From positions 58,901 to 99,012 of the forward strand of contig JAAXIB010000017.1 in the NCBI GenBank assembly GCA_012270585.1: a DNA stretch of 40,112 bases. The letters run 5' to 3'. The stretch's first letter is position 1, and every line of letters begins with the position of its first letter. The stretch is from Nitrospirales bacterium (GTDB taxonomy: Bacteria; Nitrospirota; Nitrospiria; Nitrospirales; UBA8639). The notes below the pieces were generated by a model, which saw only the letters and a list, made by a program, of their open reading frames with translations, was not told the origin of the DNA and did not search any database. The position numbers and the translations under genes were made by a program. Positions 839 through 37,349 of this stretch are shown here, piece by piece.

Positions 839-1480
839 CTAGGAAAGTGGTCGGATGTAAGGTCCGACTGACAGCCATCCTTGGGGTGGGCGATACAGCC
901 CCGCGGAGAATTCCAATTTCATGGCCTCTTCGGGACGCAGTTGAACGCGGTGGATCTTCGATGCTCCCACGAAAGCCAAATAACCCGTAAAGGGGTGAAT
1001 GGCCGTCGGCACAAACACCATGATGAGTGAATCGTCTTTGGAAATCTGGAGCAGCCCGGGTGCGGGGCCCATCAGAAATCCGATCGCCCACAGGCCCGTG
1101 CGTGGAAACGGAAACACGACTACCGTACTTTGGCCGAATCGTTCCCGGAATTGAAACACGTCGGTCATCCCCTTGAGCGTGTAATAGATGCTTCTCACCA
1201 ATGGGATGCGCTCAAACAGATCTTCAACTCTTTTTACGAATCGTTGCCCGACGAGGCGAGTTCCCAGCATCCCCGCTCCCAAAATAACCAGGAACAACAA
1301 CGCAATCCCCGCTCCCGGAATTTCAAACGTCATCACGGGGCCCAGCAGCTCCACCCACAGGCCGTCCAACGTCACGAACAAGGTGGACAAAATCAGGAAG
1401 GTTCCCCAAGCCGGGACGACGATGAATAATCCCGTAACGAAATATCGTTTGAGTTGATGAAGTGGACTGTGCTTCTCCAT
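839..1480 (-). CDS. DUF502 family membrane protein
   Basis: A 213-residue protein with two N-terminal hydrophobic segments (about residues 12-37 and 52-74) and a soluble C-terminal domain. Landmarks of the DUF502 family are 'RYFVTGLFIVVPAWGTF' near the start, 'RIPLVRSIYYTLKGMTDVF' in the middle and 'VFVPTAIHPFTGYLAFV' towards the end. DUF502 proteins are widespread inner-membrane proteins of unknown function. The ATG at 1480 is preferred over an in-frame TTG three codons upstream; neither has a strong Shine-Dalgarno sequence. The 50-bp gap to the GNAT gene downstream would allow co-transcription. Confidence 0.85.
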   Translation of the reverse strand: MEKHSPLHQLKRYFVTGLFIVVPAWGTFLILSTLFVTLDGLWVELLGPVMTFEIPGAGIALLFLVILGAGMLGTRLVGQRFVKRVEDLFERIPLVRSIYYTLKGMTDVFQFRERFGQSTVVVFPFPRTGLWAIGFLMGPAPGLLQISKDDSLIMVFVPTAIHPFTGYLAFVGASKIHRVQLRPEEAMKLEFSAGLYRPPQGWLSVGPYIRPLS

Positions 1481-1788
1481 GGTTGCCAACCGGTAGAAAG
1501 GTTGCAGGCCCGCCCCCGTGTCTGCGCAACGCGCTCACTGGCTGATAGGCGTGGCTTCCCGGCTCTTCCCCCCACCGGATCGCCTGTGGGACGGCACATA
1601 GGCCGTCCCCTACATGGCCCTCCGACTCCCCCTCAAGGGGGGAGTGATAAAAGGGAGGGATATCTTGTGCAAGCCGGACATGGTGCGCCTCGCCTTGCAA
1701 TCCATCGGCATATTGCCTAGTGTATGAAAGATGGCAGTGGAAAACAACTATACGAGAGAACTCCGATAAGGAGATAGGTATAGATCTC
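1481..1788. repeat. Intergenic region with hairpin repeats
   Basis: This divergent spacer between the DUF502 and Trm112-like genes holds no credible gene. Bases 1588-1609 form a hairpin with 8-bp arms GGGACGGC / GCCGTCCC. It is followed at about 1625-1660 by a CCCTC-AAGG-GGGGAG dyad of the GGGAGAGGG family. Promoters for both flanking genes should lie here, but I cannot point to clear boxes. Confidence 0.6.
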
Positions 1789-2079
1789 ATGAGTTCTGAC
1801 AGCGATTCAGCCCGGGCGATGCCTATCGATCCCACGTTGCTGGAGATTTTATGTTGCCCGGAGACCAAGCAGGCGATGACGCTCCTGGATGCCGCCTCAC
1901 TCGAAATCCTGAACCGAAAAATTGCGAATGGGGAATTGCAGAATAAGGGCGGGAACGTGGTGAAAGAATCCCTCGACGGCGGGCTGATCCGAAGCGATAA
2001 AAAGGTCACCTATCCGATCAGGGAGATGATTCCCATCATGCTCATTGAGGAAGGGATTCCCCTCGACGGCATCCTGTAA
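1789..2079 (+). CDS. Trm112-like (UPF0434) family protein
   Basis: A 96-residue protein with the short Trm112/YcaR-like fold signature. 'PIDPTLLEILCCPETKQAM' near the N-terminus corresponds to the 'LLEILaCP.tk..L' opening of the family. The C-terminal 'GGLIRSDKKVTYPIREMIPIMLIEEGIPL' is the typical 'g.aYPIrdGIPvmL.eEa' ending. The strict CPxC zinc pair is reduced to CCPET, as in many bacterial UPF0434 members. In eukaryotes and archaea Trm112 activates methyltransferases; the bacterial role is unclear. The ATG at 1789 is used; AAGGAG at 1768-1773 is somewhat far upstream (15 nt). An alternative ATG lies at 1819. Confidence 0.8.
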   Translation: MSSDSDSARAMPIDPTLLEILCCPETKQAMTLLDAASLEILNRKIANGELQNKGGNVVKESLDGGLIRSDKKVTYPIREMIPIMLIEEGIPLDGIL

Positions 2080-30938: not shown

Positions 30939-32624
30939 CTACGTCGTTTCCGCTTCGGACGAGGCCGCGACTTCCTGCTCCTGGGCGACATCGCCCGGGT
31001 CGCTCACCGCTTCGGATGCCCCGCTCTCAGGTTCCTGCGGACAGTCTTTCACGCTTAACGCGATTTTCCGTTCTTCACAATCGACTTTGACGATCTTCGC
31101 GGTCACCTTCCGGCCTATCGTAAAACTCTCTTCCAGCTTGTTCGCCCCATCGGACCCGACTTCACTGACGTGGATCAACCCTTCCACGTCCCCGTCCAGT
31201 TCGACGAACACTCCGAAATCCGCGATCTTGGAAACCGTCCCGGTCGTCACGCTCCCCACCTGGTATCGCGAAGGGATGTCCTCTTCCCATGGGTCCGCCG
31301 TGAGCTGCTTGTAGCCCAGCGACAACCGTTCCTTGTCCTTGTCGATGCGTAAAATGACCGCGGCCACCCGTTGTCCCTTTTTGAACAATTCCGAGGGATG
31401 CTTGATGTGTCTGGTCCACGACATGTCCGAAATATGAATCAACCCGTCGATCCCTTCGTCCAATCCCACAAAGGCCCCGAAGTCCGTGACGCTTTTGACT
31501 TTGCCCTCGATTTGCGTGCCCACCGGGTAGCGAGCCTGAATGACGTCCCACGGATTGGGGGCGGTCTGTTTCATGCCGAGAGAAATCTTGCGACCTTGCT
31601 GGTCCACGTGCAGGACTTGCGCGTCGACGGCATCTCCCACCGCGACCACCCGGGAAGGATGACGCACTTCATGTGTCCAGGACATTTCCGATACGTGGAC
31701 GAGTCCTTCGACCCCCGGCTCCAGTTCCACGAACGCGCCATAATCGGTCAGGCTGACCACCTTGCCGTTCACTCGCGATCCTTCGGGGTATTTGGAGGCG
31801 ATGTTCATCCAGGGGTCGGCCGTCTTTTGTTTCAGCCCCAGGGAAATTCTTCCGGACTCCCGATCGTACTTGAGCACGAGCACTTCCAACCGGTCTCCCA
31901 CGGCAAACATATCGGACGGATGGCCGACCCGCCCCCAGGAAATGTCGGTGATGTGCAGCAGGCCATCAATACCGCCCAAATCCAAAAACGCGCCGTAGTC
32001 GGTGATATTTTTCACGGTGCCCTCGAGCAGTTGCCCTTCGGCGAGGGTCGACAACGTGCTTTGCCGCCGCTTGTCCCGCGTTTCTTCCAATAGGGCCCGG
32101 CGGGAAATCACCACGTTACCGCGCCGATGATTGATTTTGATGATTTTAAACGGGAAGGTTTTTCCGACCAGGCCGTCCAGATCGCGGACGGGCGTCAGGT
32201 CGATTTGCGAACCGGGCAAAAAGGCTTTGACCCCGATATCCACCATCATCCCGCCCTTAATGCGCGACACCACTTTCCCGTGAACTTCCTGCTCCTGCTG
32301 ATGCGCCACCTCAAGCTCATCCCAAATTTTCATCTTGTCCGCTTTTTCCTTGGAGATGAGCAAGTTCCCTTCCGCGTCTTCCCGCTGCTCAATGTAGACC
32401 TGGATGCGGTTGCCGACCGCCAACGCGTTCAGTTCGTCCGGCATGAACTGGTTGGTCGAAATGATGCCTTCGGATTTATACCCGATGTCCACGATCACCC
32501 GGTCTTTTTGAATGACCACGACCAGGCCTTCCGTGATCGTGCCTTCTTCAAAATTTTTAAAGGTTTCTTCATACAGGGCCTCCAAGGCCCCCCGGTCCAT
32601 TTCTTCAACGACGTCCGTGCTCAT
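30939..32624 (-). CDS. rpsA: 30S ribosomal protein S1
   Basis: A 561-residue protein with six S1 (OB-fold) domains, at about residues 27-95, 112-178, 198-266, 283-353, 370-440 and 457-526. The last four show the RNA-binding pattern 'G.V..ITDYGAFVDLG..GLLHISDISW'. Domains 1-2 bind the ribosome, 3-6 capture mRNA leaders (family knowledge). The acidic, Ala/Glu-rich tail (about 528-561) is low complexity. GAGGAA is well placed before the ATG at 32624. The 58-bp leader holds a perfect 28-bp palindrome, which could influence translation. Confidence 0.97.
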   Translation of the reverse strand: MSTDVVEEMDRGALEALYEETFKNFEEGTITEGLVVVIQKDRVIVDIGYKSEGIISTNQFMPDELNALAVGNRIQVYIEQREDAEGNLLISKEKADKMKIWDELEVAHQQEQEVHGKVVSRIKGGMMVDIGVKAFLPGSQIDLTPVRDLDGLVGKTFPFKIIKINHRRGNVVISRRALLEETRDKRRQSTLSTLAEGQLLEGTVKNITDYGAFLDLGGIDGLLHITDISWGRVGHPSDMFAVGDRLEVLVLKYDRESGRISLGLKQKTADPWMNIASKYPEGSRVNGKVVSLTDYGAFVELEPGVEGLVHVSEMSWTHEVRHPSRVVAVGDAVDAQVLHVDQQGRKISLGMKQTAPNPWDVIQARYPVGTQIEGKVKSVTDFGAFVGLDEGIDGLIHISDMSWTRHIKHPSELFKKGQRVAAVILRIDKDKERLSLGYKQLTADPWEEDIPSRYQVGSVTTGTVSKIADFGVFVELDGDVEGLIHVSEVGSDGANKLEESFTIGRKVTAKIVKVDCEERKIALSVKDCPQEPESGASEAVSDPGDVAQEQEVAASSEAETT

Positions 32625-32648: not shown

Positions 32649-32676
32649 GTAGGGAACAACGATCGTTGTTCCCTAC
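32649..32676. repeat. Palindromic repeat copy A (rpsA leader)
   Basis: Perfect palindrome with half-site GTAGGGAACAACGA, 28 bp long here. The inner 24 bp (half-site AGGGAACAACGA) are identical in the two other copies at 35556 and 36271. It lies 25-52 bp upstream of rpsA. Confidence 0.95.
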
Positions 32677-32682
32677 TTGGGT

Positions 32683-33342
32683 TCATGTTGTCGGTACTGC
32701 CGAATGATCCACGCCGCGCAATTCGGCAATCCGAGCCATTACCGTGTGACTGATACGCTGGTACAATTCTTTTCCTTGATATTGTCGACATTCCTCACGA
32801 AAATCCATGGACTGGCCAAACGACACTTCCACCGGATGCCGCCTCAGCCAGGACGCGCCCATCGGGAGCACCTGGTACGTCCCCCTGAGATAGACCGGCA
32901 CCACGGGACATTGGGCTTGGGCCACAAGCAGCCCGATTCCCGGTTTCCCGGGTTGCAGCGTGCCGTCCGTCGTTCGCGTCCCTTCCGGAAAAATGACCAC
33001 GGCCTTGCCCGCCTTGATTAACTCCACGGCGGTACGGAACGCTTGTCGATCCCATCGCTCGGGCTTTAACGGAATCCACCCCAGCGCGCGAAGGATGCGA
33101 CCGACCAGGGGAGAGGGAAACAAATTGGCTCGCCCGAGATAAAAGAGGCGGCGCCGGACCCCGCATCCCAATAACGGAATATCCGCGTAACTCGCGTGAT
33201 TCGCCGCCAACAGCACCCCACCCGTCGCCGGAACGTATTCAGCGCCCCGCGTGCGATAGTGCAGGAACACGCGGCCGACCGCGCGAGTGAGGATCCACAG
33301 GATTCCATACACCAAGCCGCTCACGAGTGACCCGGAATCCAC
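32683..33342 (-). CDS. plsC: 1-acyl-sn-glycerol-3-phosphate acyltransferase
   Basis: A 219-residue membrane acyltransferase making phosphatidic acid. HX4D motif 'NHASYAD' (about residues 48-54), the acceptor-binding region 'FYLGRANLFPSPLVGRIL' and the FPEGTR motif ('VVIFPEGTRTTDG') are all present, with an N-terminal hydrophobic region ('LVSGLVYGILWILTRAVG'). The GTG start at 33342 overlaps the cmk end by 22 bases; a GTG six codons later is possible. The cmk-plsC-rpsA order is common in bacteria. Confidence 0.9.
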   Translation of the reverse strand: MDSGSLVSGLVYGILWILTRAVGRVFLHYRTRGAEYVPATGGVLLAANHASYADIPLLGCGVRRRLFYLGRANLFPSPLVGRILRALGWIPLKPERWDRQAFRTAVELIKAGKAVVIFPEGTRTTDGTLQPGKPGIGLLVAQAQCPVVPVYLRGTYQVLPMGASWLRRHPVEVSFGQSMDFREECRQYQGKELYQRISHTVMARIAELRGVDHSAVPTT

Positions 33343-34007
33343 TCCATCATGTTTTCCACCACCTGGTCAACCGTCAAGGACGAGGAATCGATCACCACCG
33401 CGTCGGCGGCCGGTTTCAACGGCGCGGTTGCCCGCGACCGATCATTGGCATCCCGTTCCTGAATGGCCAGCCGGATGTCACGCCGGGTTTCGGCATGACC
33501 GGCCCGCACCGCTTCCTGATACCGGCGAGTCGTGCGCGTCTCGAGATCCGCCTCAAGAAAAAATTTCACGTCCGCGTCCGGAAACACCCTGGTACCCATG
33601 TCACGGCCTTCCGCCACGATCCCGCCCTCCCGGCTATACCGTGCCTGAATCGGTAACAGCCGGTTGCGAACGTGCGGCAGCGCCGCCACGGTCGACGCCA
33701 ACCGGCTGATGTCTGGGGAACGCAATTGCTCGGTGATTTCTTGATTGTCGATAAAGGTTCGCGTCACCCCCTCTTCGAGAGACACGTGAACGTCGATCGA
33801 GGACAGGAGCGCCTCCATGGCCCCGACGTCGGCACAATCAATGCCTGTTCGCCGGACCACCCATGCGACCGCGCGGTAGAGGGCACCCGTGTCAAGATAG
33901 GCGTACCCCAAACGCGACGCCAATGCCCGCGCCGTCGTGCTCTTCCCCGCCCCGGCAGGGCCGTCAATCGTGATGAGCAAGCCTCGCCTTTGGGCAAACG
34001 TCTTCAC
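33321..34007 (-). CDS. cmk: Cytidylate kinase
   Basis: A 228-residue NMP kinase (CMP/dCMP + ATP to CDP/dCDP + ADP). P-loop 'IDGPAGAGKSTTARALA' (about residues 14-30), 'YLDTGALYRAVAW' (CMP site), 'VAEGRDMGTRVFPDADVKFFL' and the lid 'RDANDRSRATAPLKPAADAVVIDSS' are diagnostic. The start is a GTG at 34007 with only a weak ribosome-binding site. It lies 30 bp after aroA and overlaps plsC. Confidence 0.96.
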   Translation of the reverse strand: MKTFAQRRGLLITIDGPAGAGKSTTARALASRLGYAYLDTGALYRAVAWVVRRTGIDCADVGAMEALLSSIDVHVSLEEGVTRTFIDNQEITEQLRSPDISRLASTVAALPHVRNRLLPIQARYSREGGIVAEGRDMGTRVFPDADVKFFLEADLETRTTRRYQEAVRAGHAETRRDIRLAIQERDANDRSRATAPLKPAADAVVIDSSSLTVDQVVENMMEWIPGHS

Positions 34008-34037
34008 GGTCCACAGAAAAGGACATTATTATAGAAT

Positions 34038-35333
34038 TCAGTGTGAAATTGTCAATAATTCCAACAGGTTGTCATGAAAATGCGGGAAGGAGGTGGCAAT
34101 GCAGCCGGTGTCGAGAATGGTCGTCGGCCCGTCGCCGGTCAAGGCGGCGATCGCCAACGCCATGGCCACTCGATGGTCGCCGTGGCTCATGCAGGTTCCG
34201 CCTTTGACCGCGGCGTCCCCGTGCAGAATGAATCCGTCCGGGGTTTCCTGAATGGGGACATCGAGTTTGGCCAGCTCCGCGGTCATGGCATGGATGCGGT
34301 CGGTTTCCTTGACCCGTAACTCTTCGGCTCCCGTCACGACGGTCCGGCCTTGGGCCAGCGCCGCAGCCACGCAGAAGATGGGAAATTCGTCGATCATCTT
34401 GGGAACCTGTACGGCTTCGATGGCCACGCCGCGAAGCGGGGCCGCGCGGACCACCAGATCGCCCACCGGCTCCCCGGCCTGTTCCCGTTGGTCCTCAATG
34501 CGGATATCGGCTCCCATTTCGCCGAGAATGTCCAATATCCCCGTCCTGGCCGGATTGAGGCCGACGTTCACGATCCGTACCTCAGAGTCGGGAACCAGCG
34601 AAGCGCCGACGATAAAGAAGGCGGCGGCGGACAGGTCGCCGGGAACCGACAAATCTTTGGCCGCATAGGCGGGACGACCCGGCAGGACGACGAGACACCC
34701 GTCGGTTTCCAGCGGAATCCCCAGATACCGGAACATCCGCTCGGTATGATCCCGGGATTGCACGGGCTCGGAAAACCGTGTTTCCCCTTGGGCGAAGAGA
34801 CCGGCGAAGAGGACTGCCGATTTGATCTGGGCACTCGACACCGGAGATCGATATTCGATGCCTTGCAAGGTACTCCCCTGAATGGCCAACGGCGCCAACT
34901 CGCCCCCTTTCCTGCCCTGGATGGCCGCGCCCATCATGCGCAGGGGATTGACGATACGCCCCATGGGGCGGCGGCGAAGCGAGTCGTCGCCCGTCAGGAT
35001 TGAAAAAAACGGTTGGCCGGCCAGCACTCCGGCCAACAGACGAAGGCCCGTCCCGGAATTACCGCAATCCAAAGGCCCAACGGGCTCGGTCAATCCCCCC
35101 AACCCCTTACCCCAGACCCGGACCTTGTCCGTCTCGACTTCGATGGCCACACCCAACGCTTGCAAGGCGCGCAGGGTATTGAGGCAATCTTCTCCGCGAC
35201 AATACCCCGTAATCGTGGTGGAGCCTTCAGCCAGGGCGCCGGCCAGCAAAGCCCGATGGGTGATGGATTTGTCCCCGGGTACCCGAATCGTCCCGCGCAG
35301 GGGGCCTTGCGGCGTGATCGTGAGCGCACTCAT
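34038..35333 (-). CDS. aroA: 3-phosphoshikimate 1-carboxyvinyltransferase (EPSP synthase)
   Basis: A 431-residue shikimate-pathway enzyme joining PEP to shikimate-3-phosphate. 'VPGDKSITHRALLAGALAEG' (S3P binding), 'LDCGNSGTGLRLLAGVLAG' (PEP loop), 'SSAQIKSAVLFAGL', 'VPGDLSAAAFFIVGASLV', 'MIDEFPIFCVAAALA' and 'EELRVKETDRIHAM' match the family. The CGNSGTGLRLL loop has the Gly-Thr-Gly form rather than the GNAGTAMR form of class I enzymes. The ATG overlaps the tyrA TGA (ATGA), implying coupled translation. Confidence 0.97.
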   Translation of the reverse strand: MSALTITPQGPLRGTIRVPGDKSITHRALLAGALAEGSTTITGYCRGEDCLNTLRALQALGVAIEVETDKVRVWGKGLGGLTEPVGPLDCGNSGTGLRLLAGVLAGQPFFSILTGDDSLRRRPMGRIVNPLRMMGAAIQGRKGGELAPLAIQGSTLQGIEYRSPVSSAQIKSAVLFAGLFAQGETRFSEPVQSRDHTERMFRYLGIPLETDGCLVVLPGRPAYAAKDLSVPGDLSAAAFFIVGASLVPDSEVRIVNVGLNPARTGILDILGEMGADIRIEDQREQAGEPVGDLVVRAAPLRGVAIEAVQVPKMIDEFPIFCVAAALAQGRTVVTGAEELRVKETDRIHAMTAELAKLDVPIQETPDGFILHGDAAVKGGTCMSHGDHRVAMALAIAALTGDGPTTILDTGCIATSFPHFHDNLLELLTISH

Positions 35334-36214
35334 TTCAGCCGTTGCCGCGCTTCCCGCGCCTTGGCGATTTCGCGCTCCAGACCAGGTCCGTCCTTCGCTT
35401 GGATCAACGCCTTGAATCGCTGCAAGTGTTTTTCCAGGGTTTCGATCATGGTCAGAAGATTGTCAGGATTTCCGAGAAAAATAGTGCGCCAGATCTCCGG
35501 AGAAGCTGCCGCGATGCGTGTGGTATCCCGCAAGCCGCCGCCGGAATATTCCAGTAGGGAACAACGATCGTTGTTCCCTGCGTCGGTTTGTTGTTCAAGA
35601 TCCGTCAAGGCATTCATAAGGGCGAAGGCGGCGAGGTGAGGAAGATGGCTGACCGCCCCCAATATCCAATCGTGCACAAAGGGATCGATCGACCGGACGA
35701 CGGCGCCCATGGCTTCCCAGACGTGCTGCACCGTAAGGAGGGCCCGGGGATCGGTGTTCGCCGTCGGCGTGACCAGACACAGGGCACCGGTGAACAGATC
35801 GACGGAACCCACCCCGACCCCCGACGTTTCCTTTCCGGCGATGGGATGCGCGCCCACGAAATGCACGCCGGCCGGAACCAGGGATTCCGCCTGTTCCACC
35901 AGGGAGCCCTTGATGCTTCCGACGTCGCTCACGATCGTGCCGGGTTCCAGGACGTGTCCCCACTCCTTGAGATGCCCCGCGAAACTTTCCACGGGCGTGG
36001 CGAGAATGACCAATTCCGTGCCCGGCATCGCCGCCTTGGGGTCACGTTCATACGCATCGATGGCCCCGCGTTCCACGGCCAGGTCCAGGTTGCCCAGACT
36101 CCGGCCCACGCCGACGACGCGATCGGCCAGACCCTGGCCCTTCAGGATCATCCCCATGGAGCCCCCGATCAAGCCGACCCCAACGATCGTGACTTGTTTG
36201 AAATGGACGGTCAT
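35330..36214 (-). CDS. tyrA: Prephenate dehydrogenase, carrying an in-frame palindrome
   Basis: A 294-residue NAD(P)-dependent enzyme of tyrosine synthesis. The Rossmann motif 'VTIVGVGLIGGSMG' (8-21), 'VSDVGSIKGSL', 'FVGAHPIAGKETSGVGV' and 'GAVSHLPHLAAFALMNAL' are as in the TyrA family, followed by 'LLEYSGGGLRDTTRIAAASPEIW'. Just before that segment lies 'AGNNDRCS' (212-219), encoded by a 24-bp perfect palindrome that also occurs outside genes. It reads as an in-frame insertion in a surface-exposed helix connection. No ACT or chorismate mutase domain is fused. GGGAG precedes the ATG at 36214; ends overlap aroA. Confidence 0.95.
   Translation of the reverse strand: MTVHFKQVTIVGVGLIGGSMGMILKGQGLADRVVGVGRSLGNLDLAVERGAIDAYERDPKAAMPGTELVILATPVESFAGHLKEWGHVLEPGTIVSDVGSIKGSLVEQAESLVPAGVHFVGAHPIAGKETSGVGVGSVDLFTGALCLVTPTANTDPRALLTVQHVWEAMGAVVRSIDPFVHDWILGAVSHLPHLAAFALMNALTDLEQQTDAGNNDRCSLLEYSGGGLRDTTRIAAASPEIWRTIFLGNPDNLLTMIETLEKHLQRFKALIQAKDGPGLEREIAKAREARQRLK
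35556..35579. repeat. Palindromic repeat copy B (inside tyrA)
   Basis: 24-bp perfect palindrome, half-site AGGGAACAACGA, inside the tyrA coding sequence. It is read as GNNDRCSL with flanking bases and keeps the frame. Confidence 0.95.
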
Positions 36215-36270
36215 GGTTCTCCCGTTACCTTCCCCTGCCCCCTCGCCCCGCTTCCTTCGCCAAGCCAAGC

Positions 36271-36294
36271 AGGGAACAACGATCGTTGTTCCCT
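36271..36294. repeat. Palindromic repeat copy C (aroF-tyrA spacer)
   Basis: 24-bp perfect palindrome, half-site AGGGAACAACGA, in the 121-bp spacer between the aroF stop and the tyrA start. It is identical to the core of copies A and B. Confidence 0.95.
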
Positions 36295-36335
36295 ACGGAA
36301 CGGGCAAGGCACGCAAAGGCTGAGAAATCGGCGGG

Positions 36336-37349
36336 TTACACTTCTCGTCCCACGGCTGGCGCAAGGGTTTTCAGGTCGTTCATCAATTCCTTGAATCGAT
36401 AGGGTTTGAGCGATTCTTCTCCGTCGCAGAGGGCGCATTCCGGATTCGAATGGACCTCGATCAGGAGCCCGTCGGCGCCCGCCGCAACGGCGGCCTTGGC
36501 CATGGGAGCCACCAGGTTCCATTTGCCCGTCGCATGACTGGGATCCACGATCACCGGCAAATGAGACAGTTCTTTCAACGTGGGAATCGCGGCCAGATCC
36601 AGCGTATTACGATAGTGGGTTTCAAAGGTGCGAATGCCGCGTTCACACAACATCACGTTTCGATTGCCGCGAGAGACGATGTATTCGGCCGACAACAAGA
36701 ATTCCTTGATCGTGGCGGCCAGCCCGCGTTTCAGGAGGACCGGCTTATCATAAGCCCCGACTTCCTTGAGCAATTCGAAATTCTGCATGTTCCGGGCCCC
36801 GATCTGAATGACGTCGGCTTTTTCCAGGAATACGTCCGTGTCGCGGGGATCCAGAATTTCGCTGACCACGGGCATCCCCGTCTGCTTCTTCGCTTCAACC
36901 AAAAAATCGAGTCCTTCACGACCCAAGCCTTGAAACGAATAGGGAGAGGTTCGCGGTTTGTACGCACCCCCCCGCAGGATCGCGCCCCCCGAGGCCTTGA
37001 CGGCATGCGCAATCCCGACCGTCACTTCCAATTTCTCAACGGCACAGGGTCCGGCCATCACCACCAATCGGTTCCCGCCCACCGTCACCCGATCCACCGC
37101 GATCGTCGTATCCCGGGGTTGAAATTCCCGGCTCACCAGTCTCCACGGAGCCAGAATGGGCGTCACACTTTCCACGCCGGGGAACACCGTGAGCGGTTGG
37201 TTTTCCAACAGGCGTTCGTCGCCGATCACCCCGATGATGGTGCGCTCCTCGCCACGGGACATCTGCGATTTCAGACCCAGTTCCCTGAGTCGATCCGTCA
37301 CGTGATCGATGTCCTCTTCCGTGGCCGTCGGTTTGAAGACGATAATCAT
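36336..37349 (-). CDS. aroF: 3-deoxy-7-phosphoheptulonate (DAHP) synthase
   Basis: A 337-residue enzyme condensing PEP and erythrose-4-phosphate, the first step of aromatic synthesis. An N-terminal ferredoxin-like/ACT-type domain (residues 1-70, '[25 protein letters not shown]') precedes the TIM barrel. '[10 protein letters not shown]', '[17 protein letters not shown]', '[13 protein letters not shown]', '[13 protein letters not shown]', 'CERGIRTFE' and '[13 protein letters not shown]' are the type I-beta (AroA-I-beta/KDOPS-like) motifs. The N-terminal domain suggests feedback control by an aromatic amino acid. The ATG overlaps the hisC TGA (ATGA). Confidence 0.96.

Follow-up and report, generated by a model that had tools for sequence, protein, structure and literature searches.

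A palindrome of the double-foot REP type, identical in distant phyla and lodged in frame in a Nitrospira tyrA gene

Within the TnpA_REP (RAYT) transposases, a subclass 2.4 was described by Quentin et al. 2018 (PMC6006769), recognisable by the motifs NH[IFV]H, WQ and YIxNNP, accompanied by double-foot REPs and spread patchily over multiple phyla. REPs of this subclass are also found as in-frame parts of the transposase gene, in the stretch that separates HuH from Tyr, and it was suggested that a double-foot REP may be a collapsed inverted REP dimer; single-stranded REP is cleaved and joined by the E. coli TnpA_REP (PMC6006769). Di Nocera et al. 2013 (PMC3733652) reported intragenic GTAG REPs and stop codons that the REP itself supplies; for many REPs, a function in RNA has been proposed (PMC3733652). 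According to the same source, RPE-4 and RPE-6 are CGTC REPs without a dedicated transposase, and RPE-1 is longer.

Judged by its sequence and by the genes in which it was found, the palindrome analysed here is best classed as a double-foot REP tied to TnpA_REP subclass 2.4, a class that is already known. Neither its exact sequence nor its peptides were present in the literature searched. Its notable parts are the identity across phyla and the repeated in-frame lodging.

The palindrome in the window and in its genome

The window, meaning the whole stretch of 40,112 nucleotides analysed, contains three 24-bp palindromes that are letter-identical and exact on both strands (cores at 32651-32674, 35556-35579 and 36271-36294), as the earlier note had claimed. 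No other perfect gap-free hairpin with arms of at least 12 was found in the window. When all 109 exact copies recovered across phyla (see below) were aligned, conservation dropped sharply past GT..AC, and the unit is therefore 28 bp long, including its GTAG/CTAC feet (GTAGGGAACAACGATCGTTGTTCCCTAC). Both feet were present around 84 of the 109 exact cores and at least one around 100.

Copy 1 (32649..32676, no strand assigned) is complete, a perfect 28-bp palindrome, and one foot base is altered in each of the other two. It lies between a plsC-like acyltransferase gene upstream (32683..33342, minus strand) and rpsA downstream (30939..32624, minus strand), a 561-aa ribosomal protein S1-like ORF named from its sequence. 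Copy 2 (35554..35581, feet GT..GC) lies inside tyrA (35330..36214, minus strand), which encodes a prephenate dehydrogenase of 294 aa matching Pfam PDH_N and PDH_C and the NCBIfam prephenate dehydrogenase model. Copy 3 (36269..36296, feet GC..AC) occupies the aroF-tyrA spacer, with an aroF-like DAHP synthase gene upstream of it (36336..37349, minus strand); an aroA-like EPSP synthase gene follows downstream of tyrA (34038..35333, minus strand). The plsC-, aroA- and aroF-like genes are ORFs named by inspection.

Three exact copies within 3.64 kb are mildly unusual, with P = 0.0014 for 12 random positions and 0.014 for 25. In the whole genome (G000, 2.5 Mb), the search proposed in the earlier note yielded 12 exact copies of the 24-mer and 13 more with 1-3 mismatches, which were not confined to the aro run, and a reversed-pattern control gave 0 matches in the same genome. 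The copies lie mostly outside plausible genes, and those beyond the aro run adjoin unrelated genes. With 28 bp and 25 copies at up to 3 mismatches, the family falls within the description of a REP as a hairpin of 21-65 nt that is multi-copy, dispersed and mainly intergenic. The wider pattern TAGGGA..TCCCTA added just one further member in this genome.

Variants were often altered in both arms, with the palindrome kept (AGGGACC..GGTCCCT, AGGGATC..GATCCCT). Among two-mismatch variants of the genus, counted from listings, 13 of 28 were symmetric and paired, compared with about 0.4 expected. A chance origin of the repeated palindrome is excluded. The flanks of most copies contained no second copy, so that two inverted REPs acting as one mobile unit, as in a REPIN, were not found as the rule; palindrome pairs 58-611 bp apart were occasionally observed.

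Occupied, empty and overwritten sites

The tyrA copy encodes residues 213-220 and is translated GNNDRCSL, as the earlier note had stated. When 22 TyrA sequences were aligned around the site, these eight residues were absent from all except those of G000 and one relative, G012, in which the insert has the identical position. Compared with the outgroup-length allele of G004, about 28 bp stand in place of about 16 bp (net +12), which corresponds to a net gain of four residues; compared with relatives bearing a 6-bp deletion of their own, the net change is +18. The clean 24-bp insertion assumed in the earlier note, preserving the frame as a multiple of three, was thus inexact.

In the solved homologue 4wji, six of these TyrA residues are missing at the same place. 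The AlphaFold2 model places a loop at 211-219, between helices 178-210 and 220-223, and residues 211-220 form the lowest-confidence block of the protein (pLDDT 63). The insert is most likely a tolerated passenger in a flexible loop and would be neutral.

The tyrA gene of G012 differs from that of G000 by 13%. Identity between the two in 60-bp bins revealed no clear gene-conversion tract within tyrA, and on one flank of the copy about 23 bp are identical in both where other relatives differ. Inheritance from a common ancestor of sister species was disfavoured, as G012 grouped with G001 and G005, apart from G000, both in a local locus tree and in a tree from eight other loci. Since the two are not sisters, short-tract transfer, parallel insertion or an old insertion followed by loss are all possible origins of the tyrA copy in G000 and G012.

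Among the compared relatives, copy 1 in the rpsA leader was private to G000, and copy 3 was missing from all seven relatives aligned. The supposed recent origin of the palindromes fits these two copies, neither of which is found in any compared relative, but less plainly the tyrA copy, which is common to G012.

Several of the compared sites resemble replacements more than simple insertions. The plsC-rpsA spacer of G001 and G012 carries a different REP, GGGCGGACAC..GTCCGCCCCTAC, and the aroF-tyrA spacer of G011 another REP-like palindrome, GTAGGGGCGACCGGCCGGTCGCCC. Elsewhere in G000, the palindrome stands where relatives carry GTAGGGGCGGACCTGCGTGTCCGCCC (L004 site) or the REP AGGACAACC..GGTTGTCC (L001 site). 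Clean empty alleles were found for the L011 and L124 sites, with net gains of 20 and 25 bp, respectively. At the first of these (L011 1480-1530, G000:C73), the TAA stop of the upstream gene was swapped for the TAG of the palindrome, and relatives have kept GAGTAACTCC in its place. A further site, at the beginning of a gene for an exported phosphoesterase-like protein, is occupied in G001, G003, G008 and G012 (L103, L194/L021, L195, L307) and empty in G000, G004, G005, G010 and G013 (L302-L306).

From these footprints, the sites look like insertions at which a few target bases were lost, and often a REP was already present there or close by. The L011 site and, in some relatives, tyrA have empty alleles that read AGTA^A. 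A foot whose GTA comes from the target is a lead only, as the foot variant does not track the allele of the nearest relative.

Spread across phyla and association with transposase genes

A collection of 84,980 species genomes (257 Gb), in which nearly all genomes concerned are metagenome-assembled, was scanned for the exact 24-mer. It contained 109 copies compared with about 0.001 expected by chance, distributed over at least six phyla: they were found in Nitrospira, Poribacteria, Desulfamplus, Spirochaetes, Gracilibacteria, a Chloroherpeton and one further bacterium. No Rickettsiales were among these exact matches. Within the order Nitrospirales, the 24-mer with at most one mismatch was present in 11 of 14 genomes of the own genus and in none of 132 genomes from 28 other genera. 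This confinement to one genus of the order and the recurrence of the same sequence in distant phyla are most simply explained by horizontal entry, and the family was most likely acquired in this way by this Nitrospira genus. The record names RHO and jk18 suggest a sample series common to the Nitrospira and the Poribacteria, presumably from sponges.

In nine Desulfamplus loci (L022, L027, L031, L044, L049, L068, L076, L079, L111), the palindrome was observed within a longer repeat, cactgagcaaggatatgtcatag..ccagtttattcaatttctggtgt, which holds it at one fixed place; such a composite repeat carries the palindrome along when copied.

In-frame copies were also found in a Desulfamplus HypF (L102), a Poribacteria GHMP kinase (L095), a secretion tail of a beta-lactamase-fold protein (L096) and a Desulfamplus PPDK-like protein (L115). 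In the exported phosphoesterase-like protein mentioned above, the copy is in frame with the N-terminal signal-peptide region in four species of the genus. When the Desulfamplus HypF is compared with the solved HypF 3vth, the latter has a gap at VGNNDRCSL. This phase is used in TyrA, HypF, the GHMP kinase, the secreted protein tail and the phosphoesterase-like protein, and it is the same as in the transposases described next; in the PPDK-like protein, the other open phase is read as REQRSLFP, beside two partial repeats REQEYC. Most in-frame copies are thus in the VGNNDRCSL phase, in a sample too small to prove a preference.

Association of the palindrome with transposase genes was observed in three phyla. 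In Y1_Tnp searches of the carrier genomes, a Spirochaete transposase gene (L070/L175) was detected that contains the palindrome in frame (..GVGNNDRCSLHRN..); this copy follows the HuH motif, MPNHIHG, and precedes the catalytic helix, and a second copy lies directly past the stop codon of the gene. A motif scan of all carrier loci revealed a full-length frame of 193 aa in a Gracilibacterium (L058/L228), also with an in-frame palindrome (..TVGNNDRCSLQRN..). With the L058 protein as query, a decayed transposase was found in Desulfamplus (L235), carrying a one-base variant of the palindrome, GTAGGGAGCAACGATCGTTGTTCCCTAC, at the same place. In all three, the palindrome or its variant occupies the variable loop after the HuH and before the Tyr motif, and the Gracilibacterium and Spirochaete genes read the palindrome as VGNNDRCSL.

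Both the L058 and the L070 protein matched Y1_Tnp above its cut-off; with NCBIfam REP_Tyr_transpos, the two scored 64 and 54, below the cut-off of 80. The subclass 2.4 motifs were recognised as NHIH, WQ and YIRNNP in L070 and as NHVH, WQ and YIHYNA in L058, the third of the latter being imperfect.

The loop of sister transposases holds GTAG..CTAC palindromes of other sequence, which are often present in their flanks too, such as GTAGGGGCGACCGGCCGGTCGCCCCTAC in L222 and GTAGGGAACGCAGATCTGCGTTCC in L229; in L216, GTAGGGGCACGGCATGCCGTGCCCCTAC was found in the flank and at the 3' end of the gene. Transposases with higher identity in the C-terminal part tended to have palindromes with higher half-site identity (Mantel r 0.54, 8 of 20,000 permutations). 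The L058 and L070 transposases, from different phyla and with the same palindrome, are 61% identical in the C-terminal part, whereas the Gracilibacteria L058 protein shares only 48% and 54% identity with two others of its own genome that have different palindromes.

Three further transposases of subclass 2.4 type (L237, L242, L245) have palindromes of the form GTAGAGACG..CGTCTCTAC in the same loop, and one of them comes from a Desulfamplus genome that also holds many copies of the window palindrome. A Y1 transposase gene of Gracilibacteria (L188) contains two in-frame copies of another palindrome, similar to (T/A)GAACAGGGGAGCATGCTCCCCTGTTCA.

A cognate tnpA_REP in the same genome was thus found in other phyla; in G000, no intact subclass-2.4 transposase was found, and palindrome and transposase are not united there as a same-genome REPtron. 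Nor is such a transposase consistently present in genus genomes rich in copies, so that a mobiliser in the own genome is inferred rather than observed. Other members of the genus have one of subclass-2.4 type whose loop encodes a different insert, VGADLRVCP. No Nitrospira or Poribacteria transposase bearing exactly this palindrome was found.

The PF01797 search for a RAYT in G000 returned L117 alone (G000:C56:18112-21276, ORF 1465-1923, plus strand), which scored 105 bits with NF047646, above the cut-off. It was rejected as the mobiliser, being decayed, of another RAYT type (DHLH) and linked to a different REP family; together with the REP GTAGGTCGGGTTAGCGCAGCGTAACCCGACA just upstream, it represents a second, independent REP system in G000.

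Interpretation and comparison with described systems

It is highly probable that the palindrome is a non-autonomous double-foot REP of subclass-2.4 TnpA_REP (RAYT) transposases. A cognate HuH/Y1 transposase would recognise the hairpin and its GTAG foot in single-stranded DNA, available on the lagging strand or through extrusion of the palindrome, and would paste copies elsewhere. The family would have entered the Nitrospira genus horizontally with its transposase and then spread, and the transposase would afterwards have been lost from G000. New copies would mainly be placed in intergenic DNA, often where a REP already resides or next to one. Those inside genes would survive only if they alter the length by a net multiple of three and affect a flexible part of the protein, a loop or terminus, of which TyrA is an example. 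The mobile palindrome proposed in the earlier note agrees well with the dispersed family, the empty and occupied alleles and the in-frame copies in transposase genes of other phyla.

A selfish peptide insert of the Rickettsia palindromic element type, useful or harmless and without a link to TnpA_REP, could account for the in-frame copies, which are found in several conserved proteins of unrelated kinds and mostly use one phase. It is nevertheless very improbable, as the copies of the own genome are mostly intergenic, the 28-bp GTAG-footed unit is found within cognate transposase genes, and the literature searched does not contain the sequence.

Slightly less probable again is an RNA element, selected at the ends of genes as a terminator or as a stabiliser of mRNA. 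The hairpin predicted for the RNA of the 28-bp unit reaches -18.8 kcal/mol, action at the RNA level has been proposed for REPs (PMC3733652), and the L011 copy provides a TAG stop instead of TAA. However, the window copies are not followed by a T-run, orthologous spacers mostly lack the palindrome, and copies also occur in coding loops; at best, an RNA role would be a secondary use.

The earlier note had also considered a site shared for co-regulation, with the three palindromes binding one regulator of the aroF-tyrA-aroA-cmk-rpsA run. Their clustering within this run (P 0.0014 over 3.7 kb) and the position of one dyad just upstream of rpsA and another in the aroF-tyrA spacer would suit such an operator, which is hardly credible given that nine other exact copies lie by unrelated genes elsewhere in G000, that the rpsA-leader and aroF-spacer copies are species-unique and not conserved at orthologous sites, that one copy is within the tyrA coding region, and that in other phyla the same sequence sits within genes for transposases, HypF and a kinase. 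An assembly or binning artefact, conceivable as most genomes concerned are MAGs, is just as implausible, because the copies come from MAGs of many different projects as well as from single-contig assemblies (near copies in G010, exact in OY282444), are embedded in genus-typical sequence and have clean empty alleles at orthologous sites.

If the palindrome is indeed a REP of these transposases, its presence as coding sequence in its own transposase gene could mean that selection there keeps one phase open. It is conceivable, though rather doubtful, that the VGNNDRCSL phase is thereby kept both open and harmless as a polar peptide, which would pre-adapt the palindrome to lodge in frame elsewhere and to cross phyla unchanged, as a transferable protein-loop insert able to overwrite resident REPs. 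The in-frame copies in TyrA, HypF, the GHMP kinase, the phosphoesterase-like protein and the secreted tail fit this possibility.

REP families are often described as species- or genus-specific. Here, at least six phyla share one 28-bp sequence letter for letter, and in three of them it lies inside the gene of its probable transposase (in one case decayed and with a one-base variant). Such cross-phylum identity offers a direct handle on the transfer of REP systems from phylum to phylum, which may take place among symbionts living in one host. The empty and occupied allele pairs in conserved genes (tyrA, the exported phosphoesterase-like gene) open the insertion chemistry of subclass 2.4 to testing.

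When compared with REPINs (PMC3116915), the family is similar as a non-autonomous REP population thought to depend on a RAYT, and differs in that its copies are mostly single units and not inverted REP pairs. The likeness to Rickettsia palindromic elements raised in the earlier note applies to behaviour, as in-frame palindromes were found within unrelated genes (TyrA, HypF, GHMP kinase and others); it does not extend to the named class, which here is a double-foot REP with TnpA_REP, nor to the foot (GTAG and not CGTC) or the host group, without any Rickettsiales match. With the GTAG REPs (PMC3733652) and the RAYT-linked REPs of Nunvar et al. 2010 (PMC2817692), it shares the GTAG foot, the short palindrome, a mostly intergenic position with some intragenic copies, the supply of stop codons and the association with RAYTs; those REPs have GTAG at one end and an imperfect or looped stem, whereas the present unit is symmetric and has both feet. 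The closest resemblance is to the double-foot REPs of subclass 2.4 (PMC6006769), with GTAG at the 5' end, its reverse complement at the 3' end and a long perfect hairpin, with REPs flanking the transposase gene and in frame within it between HuH and Tyr, and with occurrence in several phyla. Unlike that description, identical copies are found here in at least six phyla, many copies lie in genomes that lack a cognate transposase, and in-frame copies reside in conserved housekeeping genes of several phyla.
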